Shown piece after piece: positions 27,001 to 57,000 of a stretch of DNA of 64,000 nt. The notes under the pieces were generated by a model. It did not search any database and was not told the DNA's origin. It saw only the letters and a list, made by a program, of their open reading frames with translations. Source of the DNA: Owenia fusiformis (taxonomy: Eukaryota; Annelida; Polychaeta; Sabellida; Oweniidae); assembly GCA_903813345.2 (NCBI GenBank), contig CAIIXF020000005.1:36027375-36091374 (forward strand), written 5' to 3'. The stretch's first letter is position 1; each line of letters begins with the position of its first letter. The position numbers were made by a program, and so were the translations under genes.

Positions 27001-30000
27001 CTGGAACAACACATATAAATAGTGAAAAACAAATGATGATAAATAATTCACAAAGTTTGACAAGAAAGTTGCACTGACTTTAATAGAACAGTGCCTCATT
27101 CTATTGCCAATGTCTGTGAATTAAAATACTGGAACAATGGCATATTGCTTGAGAAAATTGTATGGTGATAAATAATTCACAAAGTTTGACAACAAAGTTG
27201 CACTGAATTTAATAGAACAGTGCCTCATTCTATTGCCAATGTCTGTAAATTAAAAATACTGGAACAATGGCATATTGCTTGAGAAATTGGATGATGATAA
27301 ATAATTCACAAAGTTTGACAAGAAAGTTGCACTGAACTTAATAGAACAGTGCCTCATTCTATTGCCAATGTCTGTCAATTAAAATACTTGAACAATCACA
27401 TATTACTTGAAAAAGCCAAATGAAGATAAATAATTCACAAAGTTTGACAAGAAAGTTGCACTGAATTTAATAGAACAGTGCCTCATTCTATTGCCAATGT
27501 CAGTGAATTAAAATACTGGAACTATCACAAATGTAAAAATCAACTGATGATAAATAATTCACAAAGGTTGGCAAGAAAGACCCACTGAATATTAAGGACC
27601 AGTGTATCTTTCTATTGCCAATGTCTGTAAACCAATCTTTCTGAAAATCCTTAACAAAAAGTTGATGAATTATTTACATATTTACCTGTCCTGCTTTCTT
27701 GATGTGTGACTCTCTTAGTCCTGAAGAATCCTGAATATGTCACTGTCTGCTCAATATCTGAGTATTTATACCCCTTCTTTCTAATCCATGTCAGTTTGTG
27801 TCATCTATACCTCCAAACTTCACAGTTTAATCCATGGTTTTATCAATTTGGCATTCGTTTGACAGCTCATTGTTTTAATCTGCTGTTTTTGTTTTTGTTA
27901 TTATCACTTGTTCATTAAGCTTATTAAGGATTTGTATTTTGACATGTGTTTTTTGAGTTTTATGTTTGGCAGTTTGCAGTATTGTCTAATTAGTTTAATT
28001 GAAGAATTGTTTTTCATTGTTTTTGTGTTGTCTTGATTGGATTTTAATGAAATAAATAATAAACTTATGATCATGAATTATAAATTAATTCAATCAATGT
28101 GAATTTTGTTTTTTAAAGAAACTTGTGATTTATTTTAAATATATCTTAATTTTTCATTTTAACCTTTTTCAAAATTGCAGATTTAGATAAAAATTAAGCT
28201 GGTAAAAATTTAGAAATATATGAGGATAAAATAATCCTATAATGGACTCATTTTGACAAACAGTGACCCAGTTTCTTCAGTATTAGGGATTATGAAATGC
28301 CATCAAATAAATGAGTTGAATGAATCAAAGAATGTTAATAGGAATCTTCCTGTGAATCAGTTATGTTTCTTTGAGCATATTTTCTAGTGACATATTTTAT
28401 TCCAAGATTTCATCCTTAAAATGTGTATTGATAAATGCATAAGATCAGAAGATACATTTCAATATAAAATTTCTCATTTAGAGATTTAGGGTTATAAAAA
28501 GGTATCTTGTTTAAGTTTTCTTTCTATCTTAGCTTAAAAGTAGAATTTAAGAATATTAGAAAATACAAATCTGGCAGAGGTGTTATTTTCATAGAATAAA
28601 CACAGAAGTTTGTCTGTGGGGTTAATAACTGACACCTACTGACAACGTAATGTTTTTATAGACAAGCAATCAGGACATCATTCCAAAGATTATATTTTTA
28701 ATACCTTCAACATTCTAAATTTTAAAAAGTAGAAATCAACAAAGTCAGATAATGACTTTTTATTTATTTACATTTCTTTATATTTGAAATGTGTCAAGGT
28801 TTCAATAATACCATAGTAGCATTTTGAGGAGCATTTCCTCAGATAATCAGGTTTAAGAGATTTGAGAAGATTGAATCAAAGAGTTTAATCCTGATTGCAA
28901 AAAAGTCATGCTTCTTTGAGCATTGTTAATAATACAGCAGTAGCATATTTTCTGGCAAGATTTTTTAATTGACAATGTTTATAGATATTTTCAAATTCTA
29001 TAGAGTTTAGAACTGGTGGTTTTAAAGATAAGTGTCTCATTCTATTGTTACTTTGTATTTTGATAGAGTAGAATGAAGATTAAAGAATGGATTGAAAAAT
29101 AAATTCCTTGCAGAGGTATTATGATTATAAAATAAACAAAGAAGTTTGTCTCTAAGGGATTAATAACTGACACATACTGACAACATAATGTTTTCATAGA
29201 CAAACAATCAAGACATCATTCCAAAACATATATTTTAGAATATAAAAATTACCAATTGATCAAAAGTTAAATACTTAAAATGTATTCTATACTATTGTTC
29301 TTGAATTAATTGAAATTTCTGTTCTTCAGAATTCTGAGCTCATGCCGGAACATTTTTTCTTTGTTTATACCCCTTTCTTAATACCTTATTAATCTGATTT
29401 ATATATTGAACTTAAGTTTAGGGAAATGAAAAATTTAACGTCAATTTTATTGAAATAGTGCAATATTATTGATATTTTCTCCTGTGTTTATTTTCAGATA
29501 TAATATACCAACTAAAACCTGGGAGACCATTGAACCTTTAACAGAGGGACCTGCCCAGCGTTACGGGCATAGTTTAATCTTACATGATGGTGCTATTTAC
29601 CTATACGGAGGTCTTATATATAATACTATCTCCAACGAACTCTGGAAATATACAATCAATGAGAATACATGGGAATTGCTGAACCCAAAAATGAATTCTT
29701 CGATTCCGTTATATGCAGTCGTAGGCCACACTGCACATATTATTGGGGATGTGATGTATGTTATATTTGGACATTCACCAACCTATGGCTATCTTAACAC
29801 AGTTTTGGAGTTCAATCTTAGTAAGTACAATTTGTTGATGTTTTGATTTTCACAATTAATCAATTGTAATATCTATTTTTGATATTGATGCAAAAAGATT
29901 TGATATGTATTGTACCCCAGTGTAAATCTTAAATGTAATTTTATTAATTATTCTACATCTCCTAATCTAAATTAGATGCATCATTTTATACAAAAGTATA

Positions 30001-33000: not shown

Positions 33001-36000
33001 GGATATTGTCCCTGGGTTATTTCATTTAGAAATGCGGGGAGGGGTTGTACCGAATATTTCAAAAAGTAAATCGGAGGGGGAAATATTGAAAGTAAGGCCA
33101 GTTGAGTTGACTTTGCAGTTAGCACATAAAGTATTTATACAGATTATTCCCTTGATTATAATTTATTGAAGTATGCTATTTTGCTAGTGTGCTATTACAG
33201 ACTTCTTGTCACTCACTATACATTACTTTTTTTGGAGATGTTCATTCAAAATGACATAATAGATGTTAAATCTCTTTATTCACTTCAGAATCCATCACTT
33301 GCAGTGGTATTGTTTCAATTGCATCATCTGTGACAGGGTCTGTTTCACCATTTACTACAAATTCAGAGTCCACAGCTTGGAAGGGATCATTTTCCCTTGT
33401 ATTATTACATCTGTTTTTAAAACAATCATGATCCTGTTCTAGCATCTTTGATTCATCTAGCTGTGTGTAATGAGATGTATAGGTGGAAGCTTCAGAAGCT
33501 CTTCTGGATGAACAACTTTGGGAGTACATAGAAAACTCCCCTGAAATTGTCCTAGATCTCGCTTGTCTCTTTCTGAACCTTTTTCTTAGTACATATACCA
33601 ATATTAAAGTTAATAATCCCAAGAACATTGCTGTTGTTAGTATCATGGCAAGTGTTTTAAAATCCAGGTTTTGTGATTTGATTGGCCCAGTTTGGTCAGT
33701 GACAGAACTGTTAGTATCATGTGTGGTAGCTTCATATTCAATATTTGTTGATGTATCAGTTAATTGACTTGTTGATGTTGTCGCTATGTTAGCTGTTACC
33801 TGTATATTTTCTAAAGGAAATTCATCAAGTCCTATCTTAGACAAGCTGTATTTGGCTGACAATCTTACTTTAGTTGTTGACATGTCATAGTAATAAAACC
33901 TTTTGCAACTATGCATTATTCTGCATGTTCTATTTTCTTCAAAGTATTCTAAACCATCGGCATTCTCAGCACATGCAATTGTTAAACAGGAATGGAGATC
34001 ATTCGTTGCCATATTTGTCACATTGGAACAATGTTCCTCATTGAAAATATAAGTATTGGAAGCTTTCCGTATAAAGTATGAGTTTCCACATTTTGGTGTT
34101 GAAGGATGGGGTAAAGCGTAGGCAGATGTGACATGTCTATGCTCAATCTTACTCTCCTGCCATCTATAATCCCAGTCGGTTCCTGCTTCATTGGACTCAC
34201 ATTTGTACATAGTGCAAGAATGCTTATAAAGGTTATAGAGTACCACATTGCTAGTATTAGTTATACATGCTGACATGAGGCATTCTTCAAAATTATTATG
34301 TTGCCAAAATATTCCAATTTCTATACAGGCAGAAGTGAACTCAAAGTCATACCTCACTTCAAGGTATTTAACTTTGTAACAGTCATCTGAAATTGAAAAA
34401 AATCAATTTATATTTCATGCTTTTTGAAGTGGTCTAGTATGCTTTTGTATTTTCAAATATACATGTGCGACATATATTCAAATATATAGAAAATGACGGA
34501 CATTTTGAATATCTTGAAGTTAAGAATTTTTTAAAAGTTAATGTTAAATTACCTATGTCCTTCAATGCAGTGTACTGGTTGAAGTATACAAATGCAACAA
34601 ATGTAATCCTTGAAATACAGGAATGCATTCTCATAAAATTTTCTCTCTTATGTCAAAACAGTTGAATATGAATGTACAAAACAATTGTTGTTGTGCCTTG
34701 TTTGTTTTTATTACGTTCTTTTTGATGTCATTTTCATTGATTTGTTATTATCATAAGAGACACTTAAGATTTTTTTCTATTGTCTTTGTACATATTTATA
34801 TAGTTAATCATTGATAGCTTCTTATCAGTGAAGATTTATTAAGTTTATTTTTAAAGGGCAAAGAAATTTCATTTTAGTTCTATATATACCAGTTTGTGCA
34901 ATAAGTTCACGGAAAAATGCTCTCATATTCAAAGGCTTTAATTTATTTTCATGAAATTTTCACAAAGTATTCAAAGAATATATGGCTTTTGATTTATAAA
35001 ATTTCAGCATCTGTTATTTAATTGGTCAAAAATTAAGGTTACCATGGTAACTTGACTTTTTACATCATACTGTTCCTTAGAAAACAGCAGAAAAGTAGGC
35101 TGATTAAATCACTTCATTTCCTCTTGAGGTGTTTCTAAGTACTCTTTCTTGTGTCTAATGCAGTCGCTGGTGTTCAACTCATTGGTGATACTGTGCTCTG
35201 ATGCCTTTATAATATAGAAACTTGTTCAAAAGGCTATCCGGACTGCAGTTGAAAGTTCAAACTCCCGTGCAGTGATATATCACTGCGGCGGGCAGGTATC
35301 TCACTGTAAGCATGTTAACGTCGTAATAAACAACTGACGTGATTGGTTCTAGTCCCATGCTCAGGTCGCGTGATTGTAAAATTTAGACAATTTCATTGGT
35401 TGAATTGCGCGTATTAACTTATAAACAACATGTGCGGTAAACTATTATCAACACAACTTTAACTCAGAATTCCTTCCGCAGTGATTTCTTCTCATATTTC
35501 AATAATTTTGAGATATTTTGACAAAATAATGATTGGGGAACATTCATGAATACATATTTTATAAGTTGTGTGAAAATTGACCACATATACGATTAAAAGG
35601 GGAAGTATTTTCACCAAATTTTGGGGATTTTCTTCATCTGCCCGCGGCAGTGTCAATAGAGAGACACTGCATGGGAGTTTGTTGAAACTTCTTTTAAGCA
35701 AATCAAGGATTCCCTCATCATAGCATCTTTACCATACACTCCAAATCTGATACATCGTTTCATGTTTGGTCTGCTCTCTAGGACACAGTTGTTCTACATA
35801 ACCTTTGTTTTAAATGGGTATGCATGTGTAATAAAGTTCATAAATCTAAATCTAACCATTTATTAATAAGGTAAAAATATAGTAGGGAAATAAGCCTTCA
35901 TTTGTAAGCATAACTTCATTTCTGTAATATAGCCATTATATATATATATAGCCATTATTTTTGACCAATCATATAAAATATGCTGATATTTTACAAATCA

Positions 36001-39000
36001 ATAACTAGATATTTTTGGGATATTATTTGAAAATATCATGAAAAAATATTAAAAAAACATGTCCTCTGTTGAACAAAATGGCAATTTTTTGTTAAAATTC
36101 ATTTATGGCTATAACTATAAATGTAATAAATGTTTATTCTGTTACAGAAAGCATCTCCAATCCACTTAAATGTCCGGCAGCTTGTTATACACATGGCAGT
36201 TGCGAGAACTGCACTAAGACAGGCTGCATGTGGTGCAGCAATCAGCGGAGATGTGTTGAGTCAAACTCTTATGTGGCCTCATTCCCATATGGTCAGTGTA
36301 TGGAGTGGACAACACACCCTGAAAAATGCCCAGGTAAAAGAACATCTTTATTTTGATTCTTTCTGATATTATACACTTCGACTGTATTTTGTGAATATTT
36401 GGTCTTTCTTAATTATTTCTACTGGCATCATAGAGTTTATTATCCCACCGAACGAAGTTCGAGGGGGATATAGAAAAGCCGTCCGTCCGTTCGTCCGTCC
36501 GTTCGTCCGTCCGTCCGTTCGTCCGTCCGTCCGTTCGTGTGTCCGGGCAATAACTCAAATACCGGTTGACGGATTTCATTCAAATTTTATAGGCTTATGC
36601 CTTATGGGTGTAGGACCTCTGCTCGAGAAGGAATTTTCAATATGGCTGCTTAATTCAAAATGGCGGCCATTTTTCGGAAAAAATACAATCTTTAATAACT
36701 CAAATATTAGTGGATGGATTCGGTTTAAATTTTATATGCTGTTGCCTTGGTACAAAGGAGCCTTGCTCAAGAAGACATTTTCAAGATGGCCACCAAATTT
36801 CAAAATGGCGGCCATTTTTCGTAAAAAAATGTTATCTTTGATAACTCAAAGACCATTGAATGGATTTGGTTCAAATTTTAGATGCTGATGCCTAGGGACA
36901 TAGAAGCTCTGCTTGAGAAAGGATTTTCAAGATGGCAGCTAAATTTCAAAATGGCGGCCATTTTTCGTAAAAAAAAACGTTATCTTTGATAACTCAAATA
37001 CCATTGAATGGATCTGGTTTAAATTTTAGATGCTAATGCCTAGGGACATAGGAGCTCTGCTCAAGAAGGGATTTTCAAGGTGGTAACTAAATTTCAAAAT
37101 GGCCGCCATTTTTCATAAAAGAACGTAACCTTTGATAACTCAAATACCAGTTGACGGATTTGGTTCAAATTCTATATGCTGATGCCTAGAGACAAAGAAG
37201 TTCTGCTCAAAAATGAATTTTCAAGATGGCCACTGAATTTCAAAATGGCCGCCATTTTTCGTAAAAAAAACGTAATTAATGATAACTCAAATACTAGTGG
37301 ATGGATTTGGTTCCAATTTTATTATATGCTGATGTTTAGGGAAAAAGGAGATCTGCTTCAGAAGAAATTTCAAAGGCGATAGCTGAATTTCGAAATGGCT
37401 GCCATTTTTCATTAAAAAAGTAATCTTTGATAACCCAGATACCATTGGACGGACATTCTCTGCTAAAGAAGAAATCTAAAGATGACAGCTGAATTTCAAA
37501 ATGGCAACCATGTTTCATTAAGACATAATCTTTGATAATTCAAATACCAGTGGATGAATTTGGGTCAATTTTTTTATCAAAACATGTTTTGTTCGGTGGG
37601 ATTTGCTACTCCGTGGAGTTGCTGTTTTTCTAGTTGAAAGTTAAAATACGACTTGTATTGATCATCACATCAAAAGCAATTTTATTTGCATACCTGTTTA
37701 CCTTGAAGGAAGATTCAGTTGAGAGTTGTCTTGATATTGATATTGAATTATTGAGATTTGTTAACATGTAATTGAATTCTAATTCATAACCACTACAAGT
37801 TGGCTAATTATTGACCATTCCCTCCCCCATTTACTAATTTTCTGCTTTATTTATATAGCCACACGGTGCACTGATCTGAAGACATGTTCAGACTGCCAGA
37901 ACAACCCCAGATGTGGATGGTGTGATGATGGGACAAACACAGGGCTGGGATCCTGTATGGAGGGTGGCGACACTGGGCCTGTATGGAGCAATAACACACA
38001 TGTGGAAGAGGATCGGGATAAATGTCCTGCACCTAGATGGTTCTTCACTGAATGCCCTGGTGAGCAAATTCTAAGCAAGAATCTCAGATACACAGCATTA
38101 AAAATGAATCTTTATGTCGTTAATGTATTACTTCTCCCAATATAAATGTAGATGCTTCTTAGACTTCCGCTGCTAGAATTAAGATGATTTATTCTTGAAG
38201 AAATCCAATACTGCATATTAGACTAGTGTACATGTTATGGGTCATTCTTATACAAGCAGTGGCCTTCCAAGAATGAACCATCCTATAATTTTTTCAGATT
38301 GTAATTGTTGATGTTTCTCAATAGTGATATTGATTCTTACAATATAAAGATGCATTCCCTAAGCTAAATCTTGCGTATAACTTCCAGTGTGTCAGTGTAA
38401 TGGACACAGTACATGTATCCCTGGTACAGACACATGCCAGGCCTGTGGGAACAACACTGAGGGAGACCAGTGTCAACATTGCGTGGATGGTTACTATGGC
38501 AACCCCAGGTATGGGGGCAATTGCACGGAATGTATGTGTAACGACCAGGCTGACACTTGTGATAGGGAGTCTGGGAAATGTTACTGCTTTACTAGGGGCG
38601 TCATAGGAGATCAGTGTGATAGGTATGTAGCAGAAATCTGTTCAATGTTAAGGAAAACGTTTAATTGAAGGTTTATCCTGTGTGTGCACATTTAGTGCTC
38701 ATAAATGAATTAAAAAGTACAGCTTATAGTTCTAAATGTTGAATATTCATGATTCAAAGAATATATCTTTAGAAATGGACTAAGGATTGTTTTATGTGCA
38801 GACTAAATTTTCTATGATCTGAATATTTTACAAATTATCATTTTCAGATGTGATGAGTCTAATCGTTACTATGGCAACCCTCGTGGAGGCGGCACATGTT
38901 ATTGTAAGTACATGTACAATAAATGTTATCTCACATTCATGCTTAAAATTATCTCAGAGTTTATCGTCATAGAAGACTGAGATTAGGTCGTCACTGCAAT

Positions 39001-42000
39001 AAACAAGGCATCTTTCATATGGCCGTGATGTTATCTAATTTGTACATTGTCACAGTTTCCTGGATCAGAATTTGTGAATTATCAATATTTTGTGTTTGTT
39101 TAAAGTTGATTCATTCAACTTTGAATTTGCCATTGTTTGAACTAGATTTGGATATGATAGAGGAATATAAAAAACATTGTTTATAAATAAAGTGTGATGT
39201 TATGTTTATTGAGATACTTTTTATAATTAAGTAAACTGTCTCTTTTATTTGTTATCTAGTTTTGCATTTTTGTGCTCAAAAGAACTCAAGATCTTATTGA
39301 GGTCCAATTTTGTTTTAGAAGATTAATTATGACTTTTGCAGATCTAGATCTAATTTTCTTTCAACTGCTTAAACATTCAAAGTCTCCTAGTTGCAGTATT
39401 TTGGGTGGTTACACTTTTTGCGTCTAACTTTGTCTCATTACTGTAAATATTTTGAAACAATATGATTACAATTTCATCTCGCTGAAAATTCTGTCAAAAT
39501 TTGGGTATATGCTGTGCTAGGAGCTTCTGGATTGGAGCATTGGAAGTAAATGTAAAATCTATATGCATCTTCTTCAGAACTTAAATTTAACGTGTTCTTT
39601 TCTTGTTACAGACAATCTTACAACAGATTTTCAGTTCACATTCAGTCTGTCTAAGCGTGACGACAAATACTATCAACAAATCAATTTTGTCAATATTCCC
39701 AAAAGGGTAAGGAATGATGACGTCATGACGCATGCTGAATTTGGATCCTTTTGATTGGTTGTGGAAATTGTTTTTGCCCATTTTAACTTTCTCATGAAAA
39801 AATCATTGTTTTGCATTTTCAAATAAAAGAAATTTTGAACAAGCTTAAATTTCATGTAAAAAGATTGAAATGATTATTTCATGCCAAAGTTAGAATTGGG
39901 CTATATACATAGTACTATGTTATAAAGCTTAAAGCATCATGTTGAATTGTTATTCTCCAAGAGGCAATAATTTGGCCATTTCATTCTCAAGTTCGACAAA
40001 ATAATTGTATTTATACATTGGAAATAGATATCTCTTTAGTTCAATAGATGTCAAATGACCTTGATAGTTGAAATGAATGATATCACTGTGGTCTAATTTT
40101 GTTTTGGATGACGTTGACCAATATTAAATACGAGAACATTGTAATATAAGCCCTTTTAGATAAAACACGAGATGTGGCCAAATTATTATCGTCTGATTTT
40201 TTCGTTTTTTCAGATGGTTTGATTTTGTTATGTTAGGTTATATTTAGTACATTTTATTTGATGGTATTTGTTACTTTGATTTCAGGTGTTTAGGTTTGAT
40301 TGACTTTGTGAATAGCGATTATAGCTGATTGTAATATATGTCCCTGGACTTGTGTGATATTGTATTATTATATTGTTGCATTTTCTGTGCATTTGTGAAT
40401 GCAATCTGTTACAAAACATTTCTCAAGTAATACCTTTATTCCAACCTCTATACTTTTAGATCAGTTGAATACCAATTACATGTTTACATTCAATCTGTCT
40501 AAGAAAGAAGATAAACATGTAGAAGTCATAAACTTTTTGAACACTCCAAGATTAGTAAGTCGCATGAAGTATTTTAGTTTTGATTTAAATAACAATACTA
40601 GAAGTTGCATCTTTAACTTTAGTCTGTAAAAAAAACACAGAAATCATTCCAGTTGTATGGTTTCGCATTTGTGGTTTTATAACCATGTATTGTAGTCTAA
40701 ACCGTAGTTTGAAATTCCTGGAAGCTGTCATGAATTGATGCTTATATATTTCTGCCAATATCTATTACCATGGCAACAAAATATCATTTTCATTTGAAAT
40801 AGGTCAAGAAAAAATAGTGTATTGTCAACTTATATAGACATTTCTTCCATACTGTAACTTAAGAATGCATAGTCACATTGACTTGAAATGTTACCATGGC
40901 AACAAATAAGTGAACTTTTAACATTTTTAACCATTTGCAATTATACTTTACCATGTGGTGAAATTGTTTCATGTTATAATTTATTATGTCACCACCAAAA
41001 GTGGTGACATATTGTTATGGTCTCCGTTTTTTTGCGACGGCGGTTGGCGTCCGGCGTCCGGCGGTTGGTGGTTGGCGTCCGGCGGTTGGCGTCTGTAACA
41101 ATTTCTTACAACTTCCTATAACTTAACAAATACTGTTTAGACTGACTTCAATTTTTTTCTAAATTATCTACATGTTCTCAGAAGTTCAAATCTGACTTTA
41201 GATTTGACATTTGACCTTCAATGACCTTCTCAAGGTCAAAAAGGTCTTTTTTCAACTTGCTTCACATTGACTAAATTTTTTTTCAAAATCATCTACATGT
41301 TCTCAGAAATTCAAATCTGACTTTAGATTTGACATTTGACCTTCAAATCTGACTTTAGATTTGACATTTGACCTTCAATGACCTTCTCAAGGTCAAAAAA
41401 GGTCAAAAAGGTCTGTTTTCAACTTGCTTCAAATTGACTAAATTTTTTTTTCAAAATCATCTACGTGTTCTCAGAAATTCAAATCTGACTTTAGATTTGA
41501 CTTTAGATTTGACATTTGACCTTCAATGACCTTCTCAAAGTCAAAACAGGTCAAAAAGGTCTGTTTTCAACTTGCTTCAAATTGACTAAATTTTTTTTTC
41601 AAAATCATCTACGTGTTCTCAGAAATTCAAATCTGACTTTAGATTTGACATTTGACCTTCAATGACCTTCTCAAAGTCAAAAAAGGTCAAAAAGGTCTTT
41701 TTTCAACTTGCTTCAAATTGACTAAATTTTTTTTTCAAAATCTTCTACATGTTCTCAGAAATTCAAATCTGACTTTAGATTTGACATTTGACCTTCAATG
41801 ACCTTCTCAAGGTCAAAAAAGGTCAAAAAGGTCTGTTTTCAACTTGCTTCAAATTGACTAAAATTTTTTTTAAAAATCATCTACGTGTTCTCAGAAATTC
41901 AAATCTGACTTTAGATTTGACTCAAGATTTGACATTTGACCTTCAATGACCTTCTCAAAGTCAAAAAAGGTCAAAAAGGTCTTTTTTCAACTTGCTTCAA

Positions 42001-45000
42001 ATTGACTAATTTTTTTTTCAAAATCATCTACATGTTCTCAGAAATTCAAATCTGACTTAAGATTTGACATTTGACCTTCAATGACCTTCTCAATGTCAAA
42101 AAAGGTCAAAAAGGTCTTTTTTCATCTTGCTTCAAATTAACTAAATTTTTTTTCAAAATCATCTACATGTTCTCAGAAATTCAAATATGACTTTAGATTT
42201 GACTTTAGATTTGACATTTGACCTTCAATGACCTTCTCAAGGTCAAAAAAGGTCAAAAAGGTATTTTTTCAACTTGCTTCAAATTGACTAATTTTTTTTT
42301 CAAAATCATCTACATGTTCTCAGAAATTCAAATCTGACTTTAGATTTGACATTTGACCTTTAATGACCTTCTCAAGGTCAAAAAAGGTCAAAAAGGTCTG
42401 ATTTTTACTTGCTTTAAATTGACCAAATTTTTTTTTCAAAATCATCTACATCTTTTCAGAAGTTCAAATTTGACTTTTACAAGTTCTCAGAAGTTCAAAT
42501 CTGACTTTAGATTTGACCTTTGACCTTCAATGACCTTCTCAAGGTCAAAAAGGTCTTTTTTCAACTTGCTTCAAATTGACTAATTTTTTTTTCAAAATCA
42601 TCTACATGTTCTCAGAAGTTCAAATCTGACTTTAGATTTGACATTTGACCTTCAATGACCTTTTCAAGGTCAAAAAGGTATTTTTTCAACTGGCTTCAAA
42701 TTGACGAATTTTTTTTTCAAAATCATCTTCATGTTCTAAGAAGTTCAAATCAAACCTTCTTAAGGTCAAAAGGTATTTTCCAACTTGCTTTAAATTGACC
42801 AAATTGTTTTAGGTGGTGACATTTTGTCATGTTAATGCCTTGTTAACCATGTTGTCGCATCAATAAAAGCCTTCACTTGAAGTATTTTGCTCGATCCATT
42901 TACATAACCAATCATCACGTGGTCGTGTTTTCCTATGGACTGATCACTTAACTTAATATATCGGATTCTCGCTCCTGTTTTGTACGACTACCTAAAAAGA
43001 CCATACAATTGGAATTATTTTTGTGTTTTGCTTTACTATTCACATGTTTGTTTTTTACTAACATTTTGTGTAGTTTATATACTGTAGATGTTGATCCTTC
43101 GTAGAATGCATCACTATTAACATCTTGTTTCACTTTCTTGTATTTTAGAAGTCTTTAACACTAGGCATGTGGGTGTAGTATTTTGGTGTACATTTCCAAT
43201 AATCTGGATATTGAAATGCTCTATTGCTTTATCTGTATTGTTATCTATTATAGTAGCAATTCTAAACATTTTTCAAATTTCATAGGGCATATGTCATGTA
43301 GATACAGTACATATGCTTTAAATCTTAAAAATTAGCACCAGATATATAGATTTGAATGAAAATTTTGAGATTTTCCCTTTATTATATAGAATTTTGTGTG
43401 TTTCTGTCAACATTTTTAAAATTGACCTCAATTTAAACATGCAATATTCTTAGTAAGTCTATAGGATGGCAGGGGCAGTGTTTCAGTGTCTAAATTATTG
43501 GCAGTGTATGTTAAAACAGTAATGTTTATTTGCATGTTATAATGTAAAATGGTTATATGCAGTATATGTACAGCAGTATGTGTACAGCAGTATATGTACA
43601 GCAGTATATGTACAGCAGTATGTGTACAGCAGTATATGTACAGCAGTATGTGTACAGCAGTATATGTACAGCAGAACATTTCAAATTCAAGTATTTTGGA
43701 CCTGAAGTAATTGTTTTAATTTATTTAAATTTTATTTTGGATTTTTTGTGCTTTGCAGATGAGTTACCAATGAATCACATTGTAACATTCAATTTGTTTC
43801 AATACCGTGACACCAATGTTACAAATGTAAATGTTGTTGGGATACCACTTTATGTACGTCTTCAACAAAACTAATATCTTTTTAGTATATGACTTTATTT
43901 TCCATTTGAGGGATACTGGGATTCCCCTAGATATTTTCAATATATGACCTTATTTTGCATAGTTTTATGGGTTCCCCTATATATTTTCAATCCATTGTGC
44001 TGAGCAATAGCTATTAGCGTTATAATTCTATGTTTTGCAGATGAATTGCCCATTAATTTCTCAGTACTGTTCACAATAGCTGGTGAAAGGGACGTTAATA
44101 AGACAAACGTTAATGTAGTCACGATACCCACTTTTGTATGTCCATTTTTACATTATGTTCTATAGGCTGCACTTATTGACCCTGTCCTGGATAAGAGCTT
44201 TGTATTGATGTCACAGGGAAATTATATCAATTTTATTGCTATAGGAATAATTAATGACTAGTGATATTGCATCGAAACTGTTTCAGTTTGAGAATATATG
44301 AGTATTTAGATATGTGGGGATTATATATAAGCTACGTTCGGTGAATTCAGTGGTGTTATGGATAAGGGACCCTGGTGCAATTTTGGAAGTTATCCCTTTT
44401 TTATGCAACACTAATGCTTTGATGTGGCTTTGTCCAAGTTTACTGCTTTGCTCCAAATACATATTTCAGTTTAGTTGTTCCCCTGTCCATATATGGTCAT
44501 CACATCCATATAAGGAATGAACATATACACACAAAGATAGAATGAACAATTTTTCATTTTTACAGATGAGTTTCCAATGAATCATTCAGTCAATTTCACA
44601 TTGTTCCAAGCTAAAGATGTCAACCTTACTATGGCAAATACAAGAATACAGATATATTTTGTATGAACTTTATTTTTCTTAAATAAGCTTTCTTCATCAG
44701 GATGAGCAAGTGCTGAAATACTACTAATCAATTGCTTACCCCTCTTTTGTCAGGATAAACAAGCACTGAAATATTACCAATCAAAAGCTTGACCTTAAAT
44801 AATCAATACAGCATGAGTATAAGAAAGTCAGAAAATCCATTTCTGAAAATTTACCAATCCAGAACGGAAATCTTGCATTGTCCTAATCTAGAATTCTTAA
44901 ATGTGAGACATACACATACATGACCAGATTGCTCTATCTGCTATTTTCAGACCAACTCGCTGTTAACTACCTCTTTACATTCGACATTTCACGCCCAGAT

Positions 45001-48000
45001 GATGATGTCATCAAAAATATTAATTTCTTTGGAATGCCACGCTATGTATGTCTAAATTCTGCATTGTACTCGTAAAAACCCTTTAGCTTATAAGAGAGGC
45101 TCTATCCCATGTGCCCTCGGTGAACCAAAGATTTTCATCAATGAGGAATGGCTCCCTTGATTCATTACTATTGTTTTATTCAGCGGACATTTTATTTTGG
45201 TCATTTCAGTTAAAACTAAAGTAAAACTTGTCTTAGTGAACACCTCTTCTCAGCACATATTCCACCCTACCTACCTAAAGTAAACACATTTTTGTGGCTC
45301 CATAGGTGTTCACAGTACATAGATTTTACTGTATAACAAATATTACACAAATGTGATCATTTTTTTATTGCAATGATCAACCATAAAGAAATACTGGATC
45401 ATGAACCACAATTTCCAAATTTTGTAGAAATGAGATCAGATGACATTATCATCAAGGGAGGTATTTGTCATAGATGATGAGAACATTCTTAACTTGGACG
45501 GTTTTGTAAAAAATACAACAGAAATATTCTATCTGTCAGTCCTTTTAGAGTTCTTTAGGTTCATCAAAAGAATCATGGGAAATTACCCTCTGTGAGCTTG
45601 TACTCATTTAGGTTCATCAAAGAATCATGGGAAATTACCCTCAGTGAGCTTGTGCCTCCTTTAGAATAATATCCCACTTTCATTGTAAACCCCATCTTTT
45701 ATAAGATCCTCAAATGACTTGAAATTAAGAAATCCCATTTCAATACCTTCCTCTACAAAATAAATTTACCATATAAGGATGCTCAAATAAAACCCATGGA
45801 TACCAAATTTATTCTATGGATTAATTTGAAATGCCATAATTTGTGTAATGTCCCCTCTTGTATATTTTATGCAACTGCTAAGAAATTGCTTATTACTTAA
45901 GGTTCAGCATTCTTAATTGAGCTTTGAAAACCTTAAATATTATATATCATAAGAAAAACATGTTTGCACCATTCAAAGTACAAAACCTATTGCTTGCACT
46001 GTTAAGAACTTGTAGAATCATAGATGGAATTTATGTTTACATGAAAGCATGATAGCAAGTTATTACTAGTTATATTAGTTCCAATCAGAACTAAGAAATC
46101 AAACTTCACATTCCCATCAGAGGTTTTAAGTCTTTTCATAACTTTAGGTTATGTTTCTGGAGACTCTATTCTAGTTTCTTCTGACAACACCCTTTACGTT
46201 TCTGTGGTCCATATTTGGTACAGTCGTATATCCTATTCCATGAAAACCAATGTCTAATGCCTCAATCACATTTGATCTACGGCAGCTGCAGCTTCCTAAA
46301 ATCAAGAGAATATAGGGATAAGCAGTACAATGTCGATTTTCTATATCGATTTTATGAAGTTACAGCCGTCGCAGGCTTGCCATAGAGCAAATGTGACGGA
46401 GGCTTAAGTGGGATATGATGATGGGAATTATGACAGGTCAAAAATGGACTCCTTGAACCACTTTTAACATGCTAAAACATTTTCTTATCTTACATGCTAT
46501 TCTCCTGGCTTCTAGTTATTCAGTATCATATTATTGTCAAATTTTTCATTTTGTAATTTTACTTCAAGAGCAAGTTTTTGATAACATTCCAGTTATCATT
46601 ATAAGTACAAATCTTAATAATCAGATTATATTTTCTTGTTAAATTCTGTTAAAGCATTTTCAAAAGATTTACAAATTGGTTATTTTAAACTTTATTTTAT
46701 GATTTTCAATTTGGCTTCAAAAGTTAAAATGTGCGAATCAGGAAGCAATATATTTAAAAAGGCTTCACTGAATCACTAAAATGTATAAACCATTTAGAAT
46801 AATTATTAAATATCTGAACAAACATTTTTTAAATCATAATTGAAGTTGAATTTCTATTTTTTAGTCTGATCGTGATCTGGACTTCACTATTAACTGTTCT
46901 GGACCAGCACTTATCAATGTGACATACAGCTCAGGTAAGTCATCCTTTAATCAAGGTATTATTTTAAGTTTAGATATTCGACTTTGAGGAAATGAAGACA
47001 AATCGTACTATAAATGCACCTTGTTTGATTTTAACATTGCAGTATTTTGTTTGATTCTTGAATATGGACTATATTTTGTGCCTAACATATCTGATTAAAG
47101 AGAATACATTAAATGAGGATAAATGTATCTTAAAAAAAATGAAGAGATTGTGTATTTCAAAAGACTATGATAAATTTAGTTTTAGGTAATCCTGAATAAA
47201 TCCAGGTCATCTCTGTCATTTGATTACCATATATATCTGTAAAAATATATAAGCTTATGTTACTACAACAATAGCTAGTGTGTTTCTTTCCTATATGACA
47301 TTTCTGTCTCTTTATTTTGTCTTTCTCTTGCTCTCTTGCATTGGCTGACATATGCTGTCATGGCTTCTCTAATGCAGTGAATGATTTTCATCTTCTTTAA
47401 ACTTTTCGAATTTACATATTTTTTCTCATATGTCTTAACAATATATTTCTTAAATGATTTACCAACATTTCAAAGTGGTCACTCTAATTGATAGACTTGT
47501 GAACTGATTTTACAGCTGGTTTCTTGATAGTATGATTTATTTGGAAGAACTATGGGTCATAGTTGATGTGGTACTCTCAACTCATTATGTCTTCATGAAT
47601 AATTCATGAACTGATCTGAATCCATTGGCGTTCATGAATGTTCCTCAATGTGGCTACTGTCTTTATAAAACGGTTCAAACTGGCAGGAATCATAAGAACT
47701 TGGAACTTTGACTTGGTCTTTGAACAAGGCACCTCTAACAATCCACTGTGTTTTAGCCTCTACGAATAATAGCCAACGCAACCTGATTGGCTGGCAGCAT
47801 CACCCGGCTCCTGTGAGACGTCTACTTTACATAACCTTCCGACATTCCACCTTCAATTTCAAACCTGAACACAATACAACTTTCTATGTTCATGTCTACA
47901 ACTTTACTACTCCCTTCAGAGTGGTGGTATGTATGAATTGGGAACCCTGGGGTCAAGGTTGGCTTCAAGGCAAAATGGATGATCCCATTTACCCCATATG

Positions 48001-51000
48001 ATAGCATATTGGCTGACCCATAAAATATGCTAGTATATATACAATATATATCTATATACATGCTGGTCCAAAAAATGTTACCCTTATTATATTCTTGCCT
48101 GTTCCCATCTATGGCCCCTTTATTGGATATGTTCACTGTAAATATATGGGGCTTAGGACCTCCTTGTCCAAGTGATGTTACCATGCTTTGATATTGGATT
48201 CTGATTTCCTAGGCAGGTGTTTACGTATTTTCTTTCCCTGGCCCATTTGTTTCCTCTGCTTTAACATTATCAGTGTTGTTTCCCATGCTTATACCTTATA
48301 TAGAGGATTTTTAAAATGGTCAATTCAGGATGTCCAGTTGTCATTCATTTAGCCTTTTACTTCAGGAATTAATGCTTATGCTAAAGAATCTTGGCTTACA
48401 CTTCAGAAATCTTAAGATTTCATTTTGAGAATATAAGCTTACACTTAATGAATCTTTGCTTGTACCTTAGGCTTAATTCTTCTCTTACATGCCAGAAATA
48501 TACACTTCAGTGATAATACTGATTACTTATGCTCTATCATTATTTCCTTACACTATGAAATACATGCCTATTCTTCTGAAAAACATGCTTACTCTTCTGA
48601 AATACATGCTTATTCTTCTGAAATCTCTTCTAAAATACATGCTTATTCTTCTGAAATATATGCTTATTCTTCTGAAATCTCTTCTAAAATACATGCTTAC
48701 TCTTCTGAAATATAGGTTTACTCTTCTGAAATCTCTTCTAAAATACATGCTTACTCTTCTGAAATACATGCTTATTCTTCTAAAATACATGCTGACTCTT
48801 CTAAAATACATGCTTACTCTTCTGTAATACATGCTTATTCTTCTGAAATACATGCTTATTCTTCTGAAATTCATGCTTACTCTTCTGAAATACATGCTTA
48901 TTCTTCAGAAATACATGCTTATTCTTCTGGAATACATGCTTATTCTTCTGAAATACATGCTTATTCTTCTGGAATACATGCTTATTCTTCTGGAATACAT
49001 GCTTATTCTTCTAAAATACATGCTTACTCTTCTGGAATTCATGCTTACTCTTTTGAAATACATGCTTACTCTTCTGGAATACATGCTTACTCTTCTAAAA
49101 TACATGCTTATTCTTCTAAAATACATGCTTATTCTTCTGGAAACATGCTTATTCTTCTGGAATACAGGCTTATTCGTCTAAAATACATGCTTACTCTTCT
49201 TAAAAACATGCTTACTCTTCTGAAATGCATGCTTACTCTTGTGTAATACATGCTAACTCTTCTTACTTAGGTAGAAAGCAACTTACTTTTTCACCCATTG
49301 GAATACATGTAAAATTGGCAAAGTTCAAATCATAATTTCTCAAATCCCAGCCCATCGAATCCTCACATCCATTCAGATCATGTAGTCCTATTCAAAAACT
49401 TCCCGTTCGGTTATATGGTGAAAAAAATATCCCACGAACGAAAAAAGATTTTGCTACATTTATAAGCGAGCATTGATTTCTGGGCCTGTAAAAAGCACGT
49501 AGGACCTGATTACCCCATTGATTTACTGAGACCGCCAAAAATATAATTCAATTTTTTGGTTCAAAATAATAATCTGTCAGCGGTCCCTGACACTCCTACT
49601 AGCTATTACCAAACATTAATTGCCAATACATGTACACATATACGTGCCATACATCTACAAAGTAGCGAACTAGTGTATTAAGTACTACTTTTCCTATACG
49701 ATGAGCAAAACAAATCTCAAGTAGGTTATATTGACCCTATTAGTGTCACGGTTGACTGAATATGCATTTTATTCAATATGAATTTTAAAGTTCGGGGTTT
49801 TATGAAGTGATATGTACATTTTTGCTCAAATCCCCTCAGCACTTTTGATTTTATAGGGTTCTCTTGACCCCTGGGGTCATTATATTTTGTGACAATTTAT
49901 TCCAGACTAAATGTAGTTATTTTGTCATTAAAATATCTTATTAGAGAAACGTTCAGGAAAAGTTGCACTATCCACAAGACTTCTTGTCACTGCACTGATA
50001 AATGTAGCAAAATAGGCAAAATAATTCAGCCTTGAGCATGAAAATTTTGAATTTTTGGACAAATTTTGGGCTATTTTGGGGGATTTTTGCCCATAACGAT
50101 ACTAATCTACTTAAAACAGCTGTTTAAAGTTGTACAAATTGCTTAAGTTATTTATATTCTCTCATAAGTAGGACTATTTGCTACTTTACTAAACTGAACA
50201 TCATTGATTTTTCGTTTTTCATGAACTTCTGATGGCTAGTTCAAGTAGCATTGTCTTTTGTGCAGGTTTACTGAATACGTCCCTTTAAAATTGGGTCTTT
50301 CGTGGGTTTAAAGGGTCAAAATGTTGGAACTTCGCACACTGTGGAACGTTTGGGGTGTGTTTCCTTTAATTTGGCAAGAACTGCATCAAATTACTTGATA
50401 AAAGAGCAGAAATGTAGCAATTTAGGCTGAAAAGTACTGTTTTCAATGAAAAAACGAAAATTGCTGACTCAGCAAAATTTAGATCGTCGTCTCCAGAATT
50501 TTAGGGGTTAATTTGCAAAACTTTAAATGGTTCCATAGAAAGATATGCGAAATATGGCTAAATTCGACATATTTCTCGAAATTCACTAATAAATGTGGTT
50601 GATATTAGGTAGAAAGCAACTTACTTTTTCACCCATTGGAATACATGTAAAATTGGCAAAGTTCAAATCATAATTTCTCAAATCCCAGCCCATCGAATCC
50701 TCACATCCATTCAGATCATGTAGTCCTATTCAAAAACTTCCCGTTCGGTTATATGGTGAAAAAAATATCCCACGAACGAAAAAAGATTTTGCTACATTTA
50801 TAAGCGAGCATTGATTTCTGGGCCTATAAAAAGCACGTAGGACCTGATTACCCCATTGATTTACTGAGACCGCCAAAAATATAATTCAATTTTTTGGTTC
50901 AAAATAATAATCTGTCAGCGGTCCCTGACACTCCTACTAGCTATTACCAAACATTAATTGCCAATACATGTACACATATACGTGCCATACATCTACAAAG

Positions 51001-54000
51001 TAGCGAACTAGTGTATTAAGTACTACTTTTCCTATACGATGAGCAAAACAAATCTCAAGTAGGTTATATTGACCCTTAGGTGGTTCAAAAAGTTTTGCAG
51101 TTGATGCCATAACTTCAAGGAAAATAGGACTTTTGCAATGAAACCTGGTTCACATATGTGTTATACATTTATACATGATATGTTAAAATTTGGGACCTCA
51201 ATTTTGATTGGTTCTTGAGATATTGTTGCTATGGTAACCAGAGTCGTGGGTACCATGTTCAACCCGAAATTACGTTTTTCCAAATAGTTTTCTTGCTTGA
51301 ATAAACTCTTTGTAAAGTGGCAATTAGCAGGTGTAAGTGTCTTTGGGTGGCTATTTTTCTTCAAATTCTTCAATTTTCTAATTGTCTCTATGATATCACA
51401 ATAGACAAGTGACACGATAAGTTCCTTTGTGATGTATACTGTCCAAAACCCAGTTGAAAAATTGAGATGGAAAAGTGAGGAAATTTAGAATTTTTTTTCC
51501 AAAATTTTCAAAATGGCAGATGTTTCCACACCAACCAAATTGATGAAATGGAAGCATAGAAATCTGATACAGTGCATGGTTCAAAATGGCAAGACTTTGC
51601 AGGAGACTTATGAACTGGTTCAGGGAGCATTTGGAAATGATGCCAAAACGTATCCAGAAATTGCCTAGATGCTGCAAGACGCGCTTCCTTTTGCTCCACT
51701 GTGAGGAACTTTAGAACCCACTTTGCTGCAACATACCGCTTTTTCAAGATCTTTGTGACAATTGTATGGCAGGACCCCTTAGATATATCCAGTAAATCAC
51801 TTATTTCCTCTAATGAAATATGTCTGTCCTTTGAATTTGAAGAAAAATAGCCACCCAAAGACACTTACACCTGCTAATTGCCACTTTACAAAGAGTTTAA
51901 TTAAGCAAGAAAACTATTTGGAAAAACGTAATTTCGGGTTGAACATGGTACCCACGGCTCTGGTTACCATAGCAACCATATCTCAAGAACCAATCAAAAT
52001 TGAGGTCCCAAATTTTACCATATAATATATAAATATATAACACATATGTGTACCAAGTTTCATTGTAAAAGTCCTATTTTCCTTGAAGTTATGGCATCAA
52101 CTGCAAAACTTTTTGAACCACCTAAGTAAAAACATGCTTATTCTTCTGAAATGCATGCTTACTCTTCTGTAATACATGCTTACTCTTCTAAATTATATAC
52201 AGGAATGAAACATACACCAAATATTCCCTGGTGTAATTTTCCCAGAACTAATAACTTCCCCAAAGGATATACCATAATTAAGTTGCTTCTATATCCACAT
52301 GTACCTTGCTTTGCTTCTAGCTGACACCGAGAATCACAGTTTGATTTACAAAACATTCAAATGCCGTTACTTCAAGATGAAATTCAGTCACAGGGATTAT
52401 GAATTCGGGCAGGCGAAAAATCTCACATTTTATGTGTATGTGTACAACTTTACGACGCCTTTCTGGCTACAGGTAAGGCTTATGGGTAGATAAAGGCAGA
52501 ATCAGATATTTAGGGAGTAACAAAATTACAAGCAACATCTACAGTTGACCTCTCAATATATTCCTTACAATCTCAAATACAATATCTCCCAAAAGATCTG
52601 GGATATGTTATAAATAGGTGAAGTTATTATGGAATCAAAGTGCAAAAATGGAGGGAAATGTTTAAATTCTCCCAAATAATAAAAATGGTAACCATATTTA
52701 TAGACAAATGAATGCATTATATCTTTTTTTAAATCTTAGTTTTCTTCAAATGAAGTATACACTTTTGAGATATTTAGAAAATAGTCATGACCGGGAATGA
52801 TATGAACCCAAAATATTCTAAAATTGAAACTATCATTGTCACTACTACTACTGCTTCTCTGCCAGATCTGATTCCACCTTCAATACAGGGTGTTCACTAG
52901 ATTAATAATTTGTACATGATGTTGCTTGCACCTGGACCCTTATAGTTGGTGTTGTATGATATTAAAAAATGCAAAAGCACAAAATTATTCAAACCTTGCA
53001 TTATTGAGCACCAGTAGGGGTAGCAGATTCTATGTAATAATAAAGTTATATTTTTAGCTAATATGTTTCTGGATAAAATATATTAAATTAAAATATAGAA
53101 TTTTAAAATCTTTTTTAATATTTGTGTATATTATTACATGATTTCTTTTTATTATCGCCATAGATATATGAATATTTCAGCCATTTCAGGAAAATGAACT
53201 GCATAATTCAAAAACAAATATTTCATTCTATCTTTGGGAAGTAGCCTGCAAGGCGAAAATAATAAATTCCTGCAAAATCATTAAAAATGAAATATTTGTT
53301 TTATTATTCTATATCATTGTTGGGAACTCTATATGATCAAAATCCATGAGCAGTCAATGTGTCTTATCAATTCATAAGTGGAGGGACAAGTGAAATATGC
53401 TGTAATGTATAGTAGCATTATTGAACACATGATACAATATAAACCAATCAGAACACATGATCCTAGCAATGATATATAATACATATAATTGCTGTATGAT
53501 GTATCCAAGGGAATATGCTGTAATGAATATACATTTTCTATTTTTAGATCTCCTTTTCACAGATAAATCACATACAACTCGTAAACTTTTTTGTCACTTT
53601 CTTCAGGTATGTTATACATGTTTAGGGCCATGGGTCATGCATGATGGGCCATGTAATGTGCATGAATGGATTTATGTGTTTTGTTCATATTTGTATTTTT
53701 GTAATGCCATTTTATTCAATAAATTGTGAAAAGTTTTGTAACAAAGAATTATGGGACATTTCCTTCTTTGTATCAATCAGATTTGCCCATGTTTCATTAA
53801 CATTGCAAATGAGGAAGCTACCCAGATGCCCCTTTTGGGTATTTACTGAATTAGATGGCATTACATTGGTATCATCTATAAAGCATTACTCTTTTTCACC
53901 TCTTTTGCATTAGACACCATTAATGCATAAGTAAAAAAGCATGTTGCAAATTATTTCTCACTTTAATGTTTGAATGGGTGAGCTTTTCGTATTATGTATT

Positions 54001-57000
54001 GAATTAACATAGTGAAAGACTAATGCTTTATAACAATATGCATTAGAGTACATATGGGCATTCATGGCCACGGGGCATTCTCGGCCAAGGGGCATTCCCG
54101 GACAAACCCTTGGCCTCGGGTGAAAATCTGGGGCATTGTTAGACCATTGACAATATATAACACCGTATCACGTATCACGTGTCTAATTTGAAGTTTAATT
54201 AAGAAATCATATAAAACAAAAGTTTATTGAAGATGTCTGACAATGCCCCCATGTCTGAGAATACCCCTATGTACTCTAATCACCTATCTCTGTTGGTTTC
54301 TTTTCAGTTTTTGAGCATTCTAGATGACTTTATTTACATTCCATTTATTGTTGTCATGCATTTAGTTTGTAATATGTAATTCCTGTTTTATCCAATTCAT
54401 ATTCAACATTACCTATGTTGTTCCAGATATATATAAAAATACAACATTTTGCTTCATTCTTTATAAAGGAGTCCAATCAAGTATTCATATCTGACCTGTA
54501 TTATACATAAATATACATTCTTTTATATTCACCACTATTAGCATCATTAAAATTCCAAGATTATTTTTTGTGTTGAAAAATGTATTCATATTATGTTGAA
54601 TTGAATGATATTGAATATATAATGGAATATGTCAATAAGATTGGCAGGATTTACATATTAACATATTTACTTTCTTCAAGGTGTAGCACAGGGTGGCTTT
54701 TCGTATCCTTTGGGTGATTGTACTGCTTTCTTTTTTTGTTGTGTAGTTGTTATGCTCTTGTTTACATATCGTCGCCATAGTAACCATCATCATGTAGAAG
54801 TACTCACTATAGCAACTATGGTCAAGGAATTTTTGTTTTCTAGATTGCATTCTCACAGATGCCCTATCTAGATCTGTTGACTTTTTTTGCAACGTTCTTC
54901 AGGTATGCATGTTTGTTTACCTATATCTGTTTACTGGTTCCTCAGAATGAAAAAATGTTTTTTGGAAAACCAACATAAATGTTTTTAGTTTTTTTGCAAC
55001 CAATCGTTACAATTTTGTTATTTTTTTTATTATTATTTATGTCATAGAAAACATACAAATTATGGATTGTTATTATTTGTATTACATTAAGCTTTACAAT
55101 TATTTCTTTTACTTATATTTTTTTGAAGTTTTGTAAAATTGCTTGACGTGTAAACCTGTATAAGTGAGTAACTTAATGAGTAACTTGGTATTTTAAGCTT
55201 TTTAAAGAACACTGAAATATTACTAAGCAAAAAACAAACACTAAACTGTTTCATTTACTTAATTTTGATGTGAAGATTTATCAACTACTGAATCAGTCAG
55301 TTTGCAATAAGATTTGCCAAAATAAAATATTGTTACATCTAATTACAATAGAATTGATACTGCTTTAATTGCTTAATCTTAAAATTATTCTTTATGATCT
55401 AAATCTCACTTAGAAGTATGTTGTTGATATCTCCTGCTTTGAAATTGTCACGTTGTCTATGATTATCTTCAATTTTTCTATTTGTTTCCTGTCACTGTTA
55501 CTTGGAAGTTATACAGGTGTCTATGATTATCTTCAATTTTTCCAGTTGTTTCCTGTCACTGCTACTTATCGCTGCAATTATTTGGAAAGTGAAACAACGC
55601 TATGATGCCTTTAGGAGAGGACGGGTAAGACTGTTTATCTGCTCAAACAACACATGTAGATAGGACAAATTGTTGAATTTGTGTAATATCAATATTTGAG
55701 CTTGATTGCTCAAATAAAAACAATTTTAGGTTATTCGATGTTCCTCTGTGGTATCAAGGAGGATAACATAATACATGAATGGTATGATACCACTAAAGTG
55801 AATGATATGATACCACTAAAGTGAATGATATGATACCACTACCATGAATGATATGATACCACTTGCATTTTATAGAGGATGATTGTCGAGATGGAGCAAA
55901 TGGCCAGCAGACCCTTCGCCTCCATGGCTTATGAGATTGAACAGTACAATGAAGTTGGAACTCTGCTTGGAGAGAAGAAAGAAAATAATCCCCAGCCTCC
56001 TCCTAGCAGGCATAGAAAAAAAGTAAGTGGATGCCTTAAGGTGTGACATTAGTGCCAGTCCAGAGGCCTGTAGTCAGTTAGTTTTGATCTGGGCAGGCTC
56101 TTTTTAGCATGTATGGGAAAATAACATGGCAATGTGTCCATAATTATGGGTGTCAAGTGAAAGGAATGTCACTGGTCACATTTTGAAAAATGCAAACTTT
56201 TTGTATCAAATCTTCTAAATAGATATTTGCCAAATTAAATGACACAAATGATACTGTATTAGAGAAAATGAAAAACCCATGAAAATTTTTTGAGCGAAAA
56301 AACTTATGTTACAGTTAACACTATTTTTGTGCTTTTAGCAAACTGTGGCAAAGCCTAGTCCCGTAGCTTTAGAGCCACTGAATGGTCACAAAGCTGCAGT
56401 TCTAACTGTGTTGGTGCGTTTACCTTGTGGTGATGAAGATCATACTCCCCCAGGCACAACTGGGATAGTAATGGGCTCATCTCTGGTCACTCTGGGTAAG
56501 AATCACCTCTTGTGTTTTTCTGACATTTTGCTGCAACACGTTTTTACAAAAAAAAGCCAAGCAATTAAAGGTAGAATCCAATAGAGCAATTTTCACAATT
56601 GTCTGGATTTTTGGAATCGATTTTGGTTGCCGCGGAAAAACATTGATTAACCACATCAATTGATCTTGGATCTTTTTGAAATAATGTTTGCAGTTTGTAA
56701 AAAGCAGATGGTTGTCTCTTTTTCCTATCACCACAAATATGTTTTTCACCAGTGCTCTGAGAGATTCTTCCTTTAACTGGCTAATTTAAATGAATGATGG
56801 CTGCTTCACTGAGACATACAATGTAGTCTTTTCCAAGCTTAGATTTATCCAACCGAAATTTAGGTAAAGGGGCAACAAAAGATTGAGACTGGAAATTAGG
56901 TAATTCAATTTTTAAATTGTCAAAATTACAAATATTTTTGCTTGTATCATTCCTTGTTGTGATTATTTTCAAAAAAAAATATTTCAAGTTTATCAGTTCA

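Follow-up and report, generated by a model that had tools for sequence, protein, structure and literature searches.

An attractin gene with a repeated stem exon

The stretch of DNA considered here, 64,000 nucleotides (nt) from the annelid Owenia fusiformis (assembly GCA_903813345.2, contig CAIIXF020000005.1, positions 36,027,375 to 36,091,374 of the forward strand; hereafter the window), carries an attractin gene on its plus strand, and within that gene lie six tandem versions of one exon of the membrane-proximal stem. That the gene is attractin, as a first-pass annotation made from the letters alone had proposed, is borne out by Pfam matches to the ATRN beta-propeller, laminin/attractin EGF and GBD_ATRN domains. 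CUB, EGF, Attractin/LZTR1 propeller, PSI (three frames) and laminin/attractin EGF domains follow one another above the Pfam cut-off in the window's exon frames, from which the order was taken, part of the head exons lying outside our gene model. The cytoplasmic frame contains the MASRPF motif, which is required for association with Mgrn1 in Drosophila (PMC8254101). A search of the 498-Mb genome with GBD_ATRN returned six matches, all in this gene (A1, A2, A6, a constant exon, B1 and B2; names as in Table 1); all eight candidates were scored, in a loose first look that leaves absence elsewhere unproven. The erythrocruorin linker family, an annelid one, has three matches above its cut-off in the genome, of which one also hits a haemoglobin linker in the PDB at E 0.0023, and these point to an annelid source. 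A molluscan origin was set aside after this and after a search for the molluscan haemocyanin domain gave no match, the controls of that search having given none either, so that absence is unproven. Rfam gave no matches within the window at gathering scores, and comparison of the stem A1+B2 with solved structures gave three matches only, all at an expectation value (E) of at least 0.33, which we regard as chance.

Table 1. Exons and frames of the attractin stem, transmembrane and tail region, in positions of the window; bit scores are those of the joined stem
Feature	Position	Strand	Length (nt)	Remarks
Constant exon upstream of array A	38848..38903	+		end of laminin/attractin EGF; leaves phase 1; last base T
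A1	39612..39706	+	95	canonical version (YNLTTDFQFTFSLS...); with B2, 135.8 bits to GBD_ATRN
A2	40460..40554	+	95	with B2, 130.5 bits to GBD_ATRN
A3	43759..43853	+	95	with B2, 105.2 bits to GBD_ATRN
A4	44041..44135	+	95	with B2, 99.0 bits to GBD_ATRN
A5	44566..44660	+	95	most diverged; with B2, 78.8 bits to GBD_ATRN; weakest donor
A6	44951..45045	+	95	no sequon; with B2, 122.5 bits to GBD_ATRN
Constant exon within stem domain	46865..46934	+	70	phase 0 in, 1 out
B1	47757..47926	+	170	first version of second variable stem exon; phase 1 in, 0 out; weak acceptor
B2	52321..52472	+	152	second version of second variable stem exon; same phases as B1
C1	53548..53606	+	59	first version of juxtamembrane/start-of-transmembrane exon; phase 0 in, 2 out
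C2	54844..54902	+	59	second version of juxtamembrane/start-of-transmembrane exon
Constant exon, remainder of transmembrane helix	55546..55624	+
Open frame with cytoplasmic MASRPF	55876..56046	+

Vertebrate attractin carries segment A once. The annotation had placed six 95-nt versions of it here, and they are present as it described them: all six have AG and GT borders, begin in phase 1, end in phase 0, and are open in that frame, with 31 open codons and no indels. This is the sole open frame in four of the exons, and A1 and A6 have one additional frame open. N-glycosylation sequons number one each in A1, A2 and A3, two in A4, three in A5 and none in A6, in agreement with the annotated three in the fifth version and none in the sixth. 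The further claim that the six are versions of a single stem segment was sustained by leave-one-out profiles, in which every exon was recovered from the window, translated in six frames, by a profile of the other five (E 1.2e-6, 6.9e-9, 1.7e-13, 4.4e-8, 1.4e-5 and 6.4e-7 for A1 to A6), and the best match outside the array in all six runs reached only E 0.11. No further copies in the window were found by these profiles.

In the intron that holds the array (38904-46864), ten AG..GT segments are exactly 95 nt long and open in the array phase, and six of them have both splice sites at least as strong as the weakest array site. With the same threshold, which was derived from the array itself using generic site weights, nine segments of 60-150 nt were found in this intron, all of them A exons or truncated or nested forms of A exons. 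Used as a protein query of the genome at E <= 1, A3 retrieved no sequences beyond A3, A4 and A5, and neither this query nor the GBD_ATRN search located A copies elsewhere, both being loose first looks by which absence is unproven.

All eight joined versions of the stem that were scanned exceeded the 27-bit cut-off of GBD_ATRN (PF24972), with 78.8-135.8 bits. The score with the A segment masked was 78.8 bits, and ten computed permutations of that segment gave 78.5-86.4, so that five of the six A versions contain recognisable attractin stem sequence; A5 taken alone lacks it and is assigned to the set because it resembles A3 and A4. A 14-bp minisatellite of 8.3 copies (43559-43674) lies shortly upstream of the A3-A5 subgroup.

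Two further exon pairs and the logic of the reading frame

The extent first assigned to the variable region, 39612..45045, was too narrow, and two pairs of duplicated exons downstream, B (47757/52321) and C (53548/54844), had been missed. B1 and B2 match GBD_ATRN at overlapping positions (78-114 and 65-113 of 117) and are 51.5% identical over 33 residues, and a genome query with B1 found, apart from the two B exons, a single sequence on the contig labelled C10, which contains two stops and scores at chance level (E 0.51). The C exons were first recognised by way of what we take to be the corresponding stretch of vertebrate attractin. They are identical at 10 of 19 residues, and a C2 query finds C1 at E 5.6e-4, while C2 is not among the matches of a C1 query of the window at 0.05. 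Independent support for the C pair comes from a likely MEGF8 paralogue elsewhere in the genome, because its continuous juxtamembrane and transmembrane stretch aligns with both C1 (7 of 16 identical) and C2 (6 of 16) before running on into the equivalent of the constant transmembrane exon. Of the nine differences between C1 and C2, six lie ahead of the hydrophobic stretch and three within its first nine residues; hydropathy maxima over 19 residues are 2.67 with C1 and 2.54 with C2, as expected of a single transmembrane helix.

No constant exon separates the B set from the C set that follows it, and a block duplication of B together with C can be ruled out, because the order is B1 B2 C1 C2 and not B1 C1 B2 C2. 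Among 22 attractin exon frames, which cover the head in part, a search of the window for second copies (E <= 0.05) brought up only B, C and a match between two neighbouring laminin EGF repeats. AG and GT borders are intact in all ten variable exons, and the three sets have several of the features by which mutually exclusive clusters are recognised, namely tandem homologues with shared phases and similar lengths (95 nt in 6/6 A exons, 59 nt in 2/2 C exons, and 170 and 152 nt in B). We consider it very probable, on the exon sequences, that A, B and C are real alternative exons.

Repeats were observed in the neighbourhood of these pairs. A 21-bp minisatellite between B1 and B2 (48556-49263) is open for more than 100 codons on both strands, and the same intron contains a direct repeat of identical open frames about 1.3 kb apart (49313-49547 and 50651-50885). 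Part of the acceptor region and start of the transmembrane exon recurs in tandem at a distance of 64 bp upstream (55455-55545); the upstream copy has no AG at the junction and is either a dead or an incipient extra copy.

The joins that we built follow a simple arithmetic. All 12 A x B joins are open, as are all four B x C joins, built with A1, through to the transmembrane exon. A stop was met in 57 of 57 joins with several A exons and in the product skipping all of A (joined to B2), and likewise in the B1+B2, no-B, C1+C2 and no-C joins, each built with A1. Among the A joins built, an open message comes only from inclusion of a single A exon. The phases would thus permit 6 x 2 x 2 = 24 open combinations, provided that the choice in each set is independent, a figure of phase arithmetic in that the A x B and B x C joins were built and not every one of the 24. 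The annotation had held that exclusive choice is built into the exon length. One part of this stands, in that joined products are frameshifted and the length rule restricts which messages can yield protein; the other does not, since length alone does not direct the spliceosome to pick one exon.

Constraint on the copies and the neighbouring sequences

The proportion of nonsynonymous differences (pN) is below that of synonymous differences (pS) in all 17 pairs compared (15 A pairs, B over 36 aligned codons, and C), with pS at 0.64-1.00. In a one-directional simulation of neutral drift, which applied the observed number of changes in 5000 runs per pair, the fraction of products that stayed open and as similar as the real exons was at most 0.0018 in 14 of the 15 A pairs and 0.0168 in A1-A5, and none of 5000 did so for the B pair or for the C pair. 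Codons 1-21 of A5 are constrained relative to A3 and A4 (0/5000 simulated). Apart from the end of A5, the copies are clearly constrained as protein. The introns flanking the A exons show no similarity to one another at E <= 0.01. We infer that the duplications are old and that the copies have been maintained as protein.

The likely MEGF8, on the contig labelled C6, is named by its domains and not from a database record, having ATRN-type propellers, a transmembrane segment and a MASRPF tail. Its stem region, transmembrane segment and tail occupy one 401-codon open frame that ends in a stop; the 70 kb examined around the gene gave no second copy of this frame at E <= 0.1 and no match to the A or B queries. 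Its stem has no significant Pfam match, GBD_ATRN included, and because of this a MEGF8 counterpart of segment A cannot be assigned. The 5' part of the gene (EGF, propeller and PSI exons) is present twice in tandem (~2918600-2928300 and 2938500-2954600), with aligned pieces 84.6-96.6% identical, by duplication or as an effect of assembly.

Two other features of the window lie upstream of the stem. A satellite of ~18 kb (9622-27631), of 117-bp units and then 129-bp units, lies between two propeller-region frames. On the minus strand, 33266-34402 is a 378-amino-acid open frame antisense within the attractin gene, with cysteines and a hydrophobic segment by eye; it has no Pfam match above the cut-off and is a possible nested gene.

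What a variable stem may be for

We suggest that the stem of this attractin is encoded by three successive tandem sets of alternative exons, and that splicing selects the partner or cargo coupled to the MGRN1 adapter, an explanation that we consider reasonably probable as a whole. Each mRNA would take one exon from each set, and any other splice product would be out of frame and probably broken down. The head (CUB, EGF, propeller and PSI) and the MGRN1-binding tail would remain constant, and the parts free to vary would be the stem and, via C, the juxtamembrane residues and a few more where the hydrophobic stretch begins. Contact with neighbouring membrane proteins would fall to the stem and juxtamembrane stretch, and splicing could then pick, cell by cell, the partner or cargo receptor of the attractin-MGRN1 ubiquitin ligase adapter, or the manner of its coupling. 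We favour this reading because the MEGF8 stem makes extensive contact with the membrane protein MOSMO, ATRN and MEGF8 both being MGRN1 adapters (PMC12752501), and because ATRN is described as the adapter that recruits MGRN1 for melanocortin receptor turnover (PMC12752501, PMC13161197). Taken by itself, the splice-selected choice of a membrane partner or cargo is tentative, and we would place it a little short of an even chance.

Several observations weigh against this explanation. The partner-choice function is argued from MEGF8, yet ATRN fails to bind MOSMO, which is attributed to its differing stem (PMC12752501). In the genome search A3, A4 and A5 alone had no GBD_ATRN match, and A5 adds no bits to the joined stem, its score being that of the masked version and within the range of the permutations. 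pN comes near pS in A1-A5 (0.65 vs 0.69) and A1-A4 (0.57 vs 0.67). Potential docking and selector pairing was no better than chance might give, with 4 of 21 and 9 of 17 shuffled docks as good (one species, 24-nt windows and part of the long introns). Generic weights give low scores to the donors of A4 (-1.0) and A5 (-2.5) and to the acceptor of B1 (-1.9), and the score of the weakest A donor is equalled or bettered by 28% of all GTs in the window. Finally, codons 22-31 of A5 appear unconstrained relative to A3 and A4 (simulated 0.21 and 0.17). These weak sites and the unconstrained A5 tail are what would be expected if the array were a fossil, or decaying, set of tandem duplicates, with use confined to the canonical A1, B2 and a single C exon. 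Such decay is hard to reconcile with 31 open codons free of indels in all six A exons, with intact AG and GT in 10/10 variable exons, with amino-acid similarity beyond the neutral simulation in nearly all pairs, and with the recovery of every A exon by its fellows, and we regard it as rather improbable. A surface identity code of the kind known from Dscam, in which the number of isoforms would count and not the identity of the partner, is suggested by the several successive sets in one surface protein and their possible combinatorial use. At most 24 versions would be available to it, however, the variable part adjoins the membrane and is not an exposed tip, and homophilic binding is without support, all of which makes such a code very improbable.

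The diversification could also have been driven by bacteria. According to a 2025 preprint (PMC12632345), the ATRN stem is the route by which Vibrio nigritoxin and related exotoxins gain entry to insect cells, through beta-strand augmentation as modelled there, and conversion of the host QFTF strand to glycines disrupts toxin binding and sensitivity in those cells. Residues 8-11 of A1 read QFTF, where the other five A exons have MFTF, IVTF, SVLF, SVNF and LFTF, and sequon number varies from 0 to 3 across the set. If the A exon carries the edge strand clamped by secreted exotoxins, alternative versions might reduce or divert docking, which we think unlikely. A more specific form, in which the stem set (of up to 24) was enlarged since its edge strand is a landing site for marine Gram-negative exotoxins and the A exons are alternative landing strands, seems to us quite unlikely. 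The link is a four-letter string and a domain match, and not an alignment to the mosquito sequence, and it may be a coincidence with a structurally exposed edge strand; backbone pairing may tolerate changes of side chain, and the mouse stem binds toxin too (same preprint). In none of the 15 A pairs does pN exceed pS, and the B and C sets, being outside the QFTF strand, would need another reason. Variation inside the membrane might be thought to exclude toxins altogether, but this argument is weakened because six of the nine C1/C2 differences precede the hydrophobic stretch. If true, the receptor would use splicing to vary the very site at which it is vulnerable, with head and tail left as they are. 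The gene also allows a possible connection between the duplication of exons and bacterial toxins that exploit a receptor strand to be put to the test.

Attractin and MEGF8 bring the ligase MGRN1 to surface receptors, and if the partner-choice explanation is true, stem-only swapping in nature would provide a ready set of variants for finding the residues by which such adapters pick their targets. An annotation that retains one exon per position would conceal the array.

Among known systems, insect Dscam1 is comparable in that a single surface-receptor gene carries several arrays of homologous exons one after another, with one choice expected per array. Its four tandem arrays of mutually exclusive exons belong to another protein family, however, and yield 38,016 combinations (PMC1397879), against 24 for attractin; moreover, in attractin, unlike Dscam1, the variable part is the membrane-proximal stem, and a docking/selector signal was not found in the introns examined. 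The muscle myosin heavy chain likewise has its alternative exons grouped in clusters inside a single gene, in animals across the metazoa (PMC3912159), but it is a motor protein tuned by tissue whereas attractin is a membrane adapter. The MGRN1 adapters Attractin, ATRNL1 and Distracted share the domains and the MASRPF tail motif of the present protein and differ from it in that alternative stem exons, or an attractin exon array of any kind, were not found for them in the literature searched, among the matches listed and with subscription journals largely outside its scope. Closest at hand is the likely MEGF8 of the same genome, a paralogue with ATRN-type propellers, transmembrane segment and MASRPF tail, whose stem region is undivided in one exon where that of attractin is split into variable sets. 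Mutually exclusive exon arrays are thus already known, from Dscam and myosin, and what Owenia attractin appears to add is such arrays in an unexpected gene and at a telling place.

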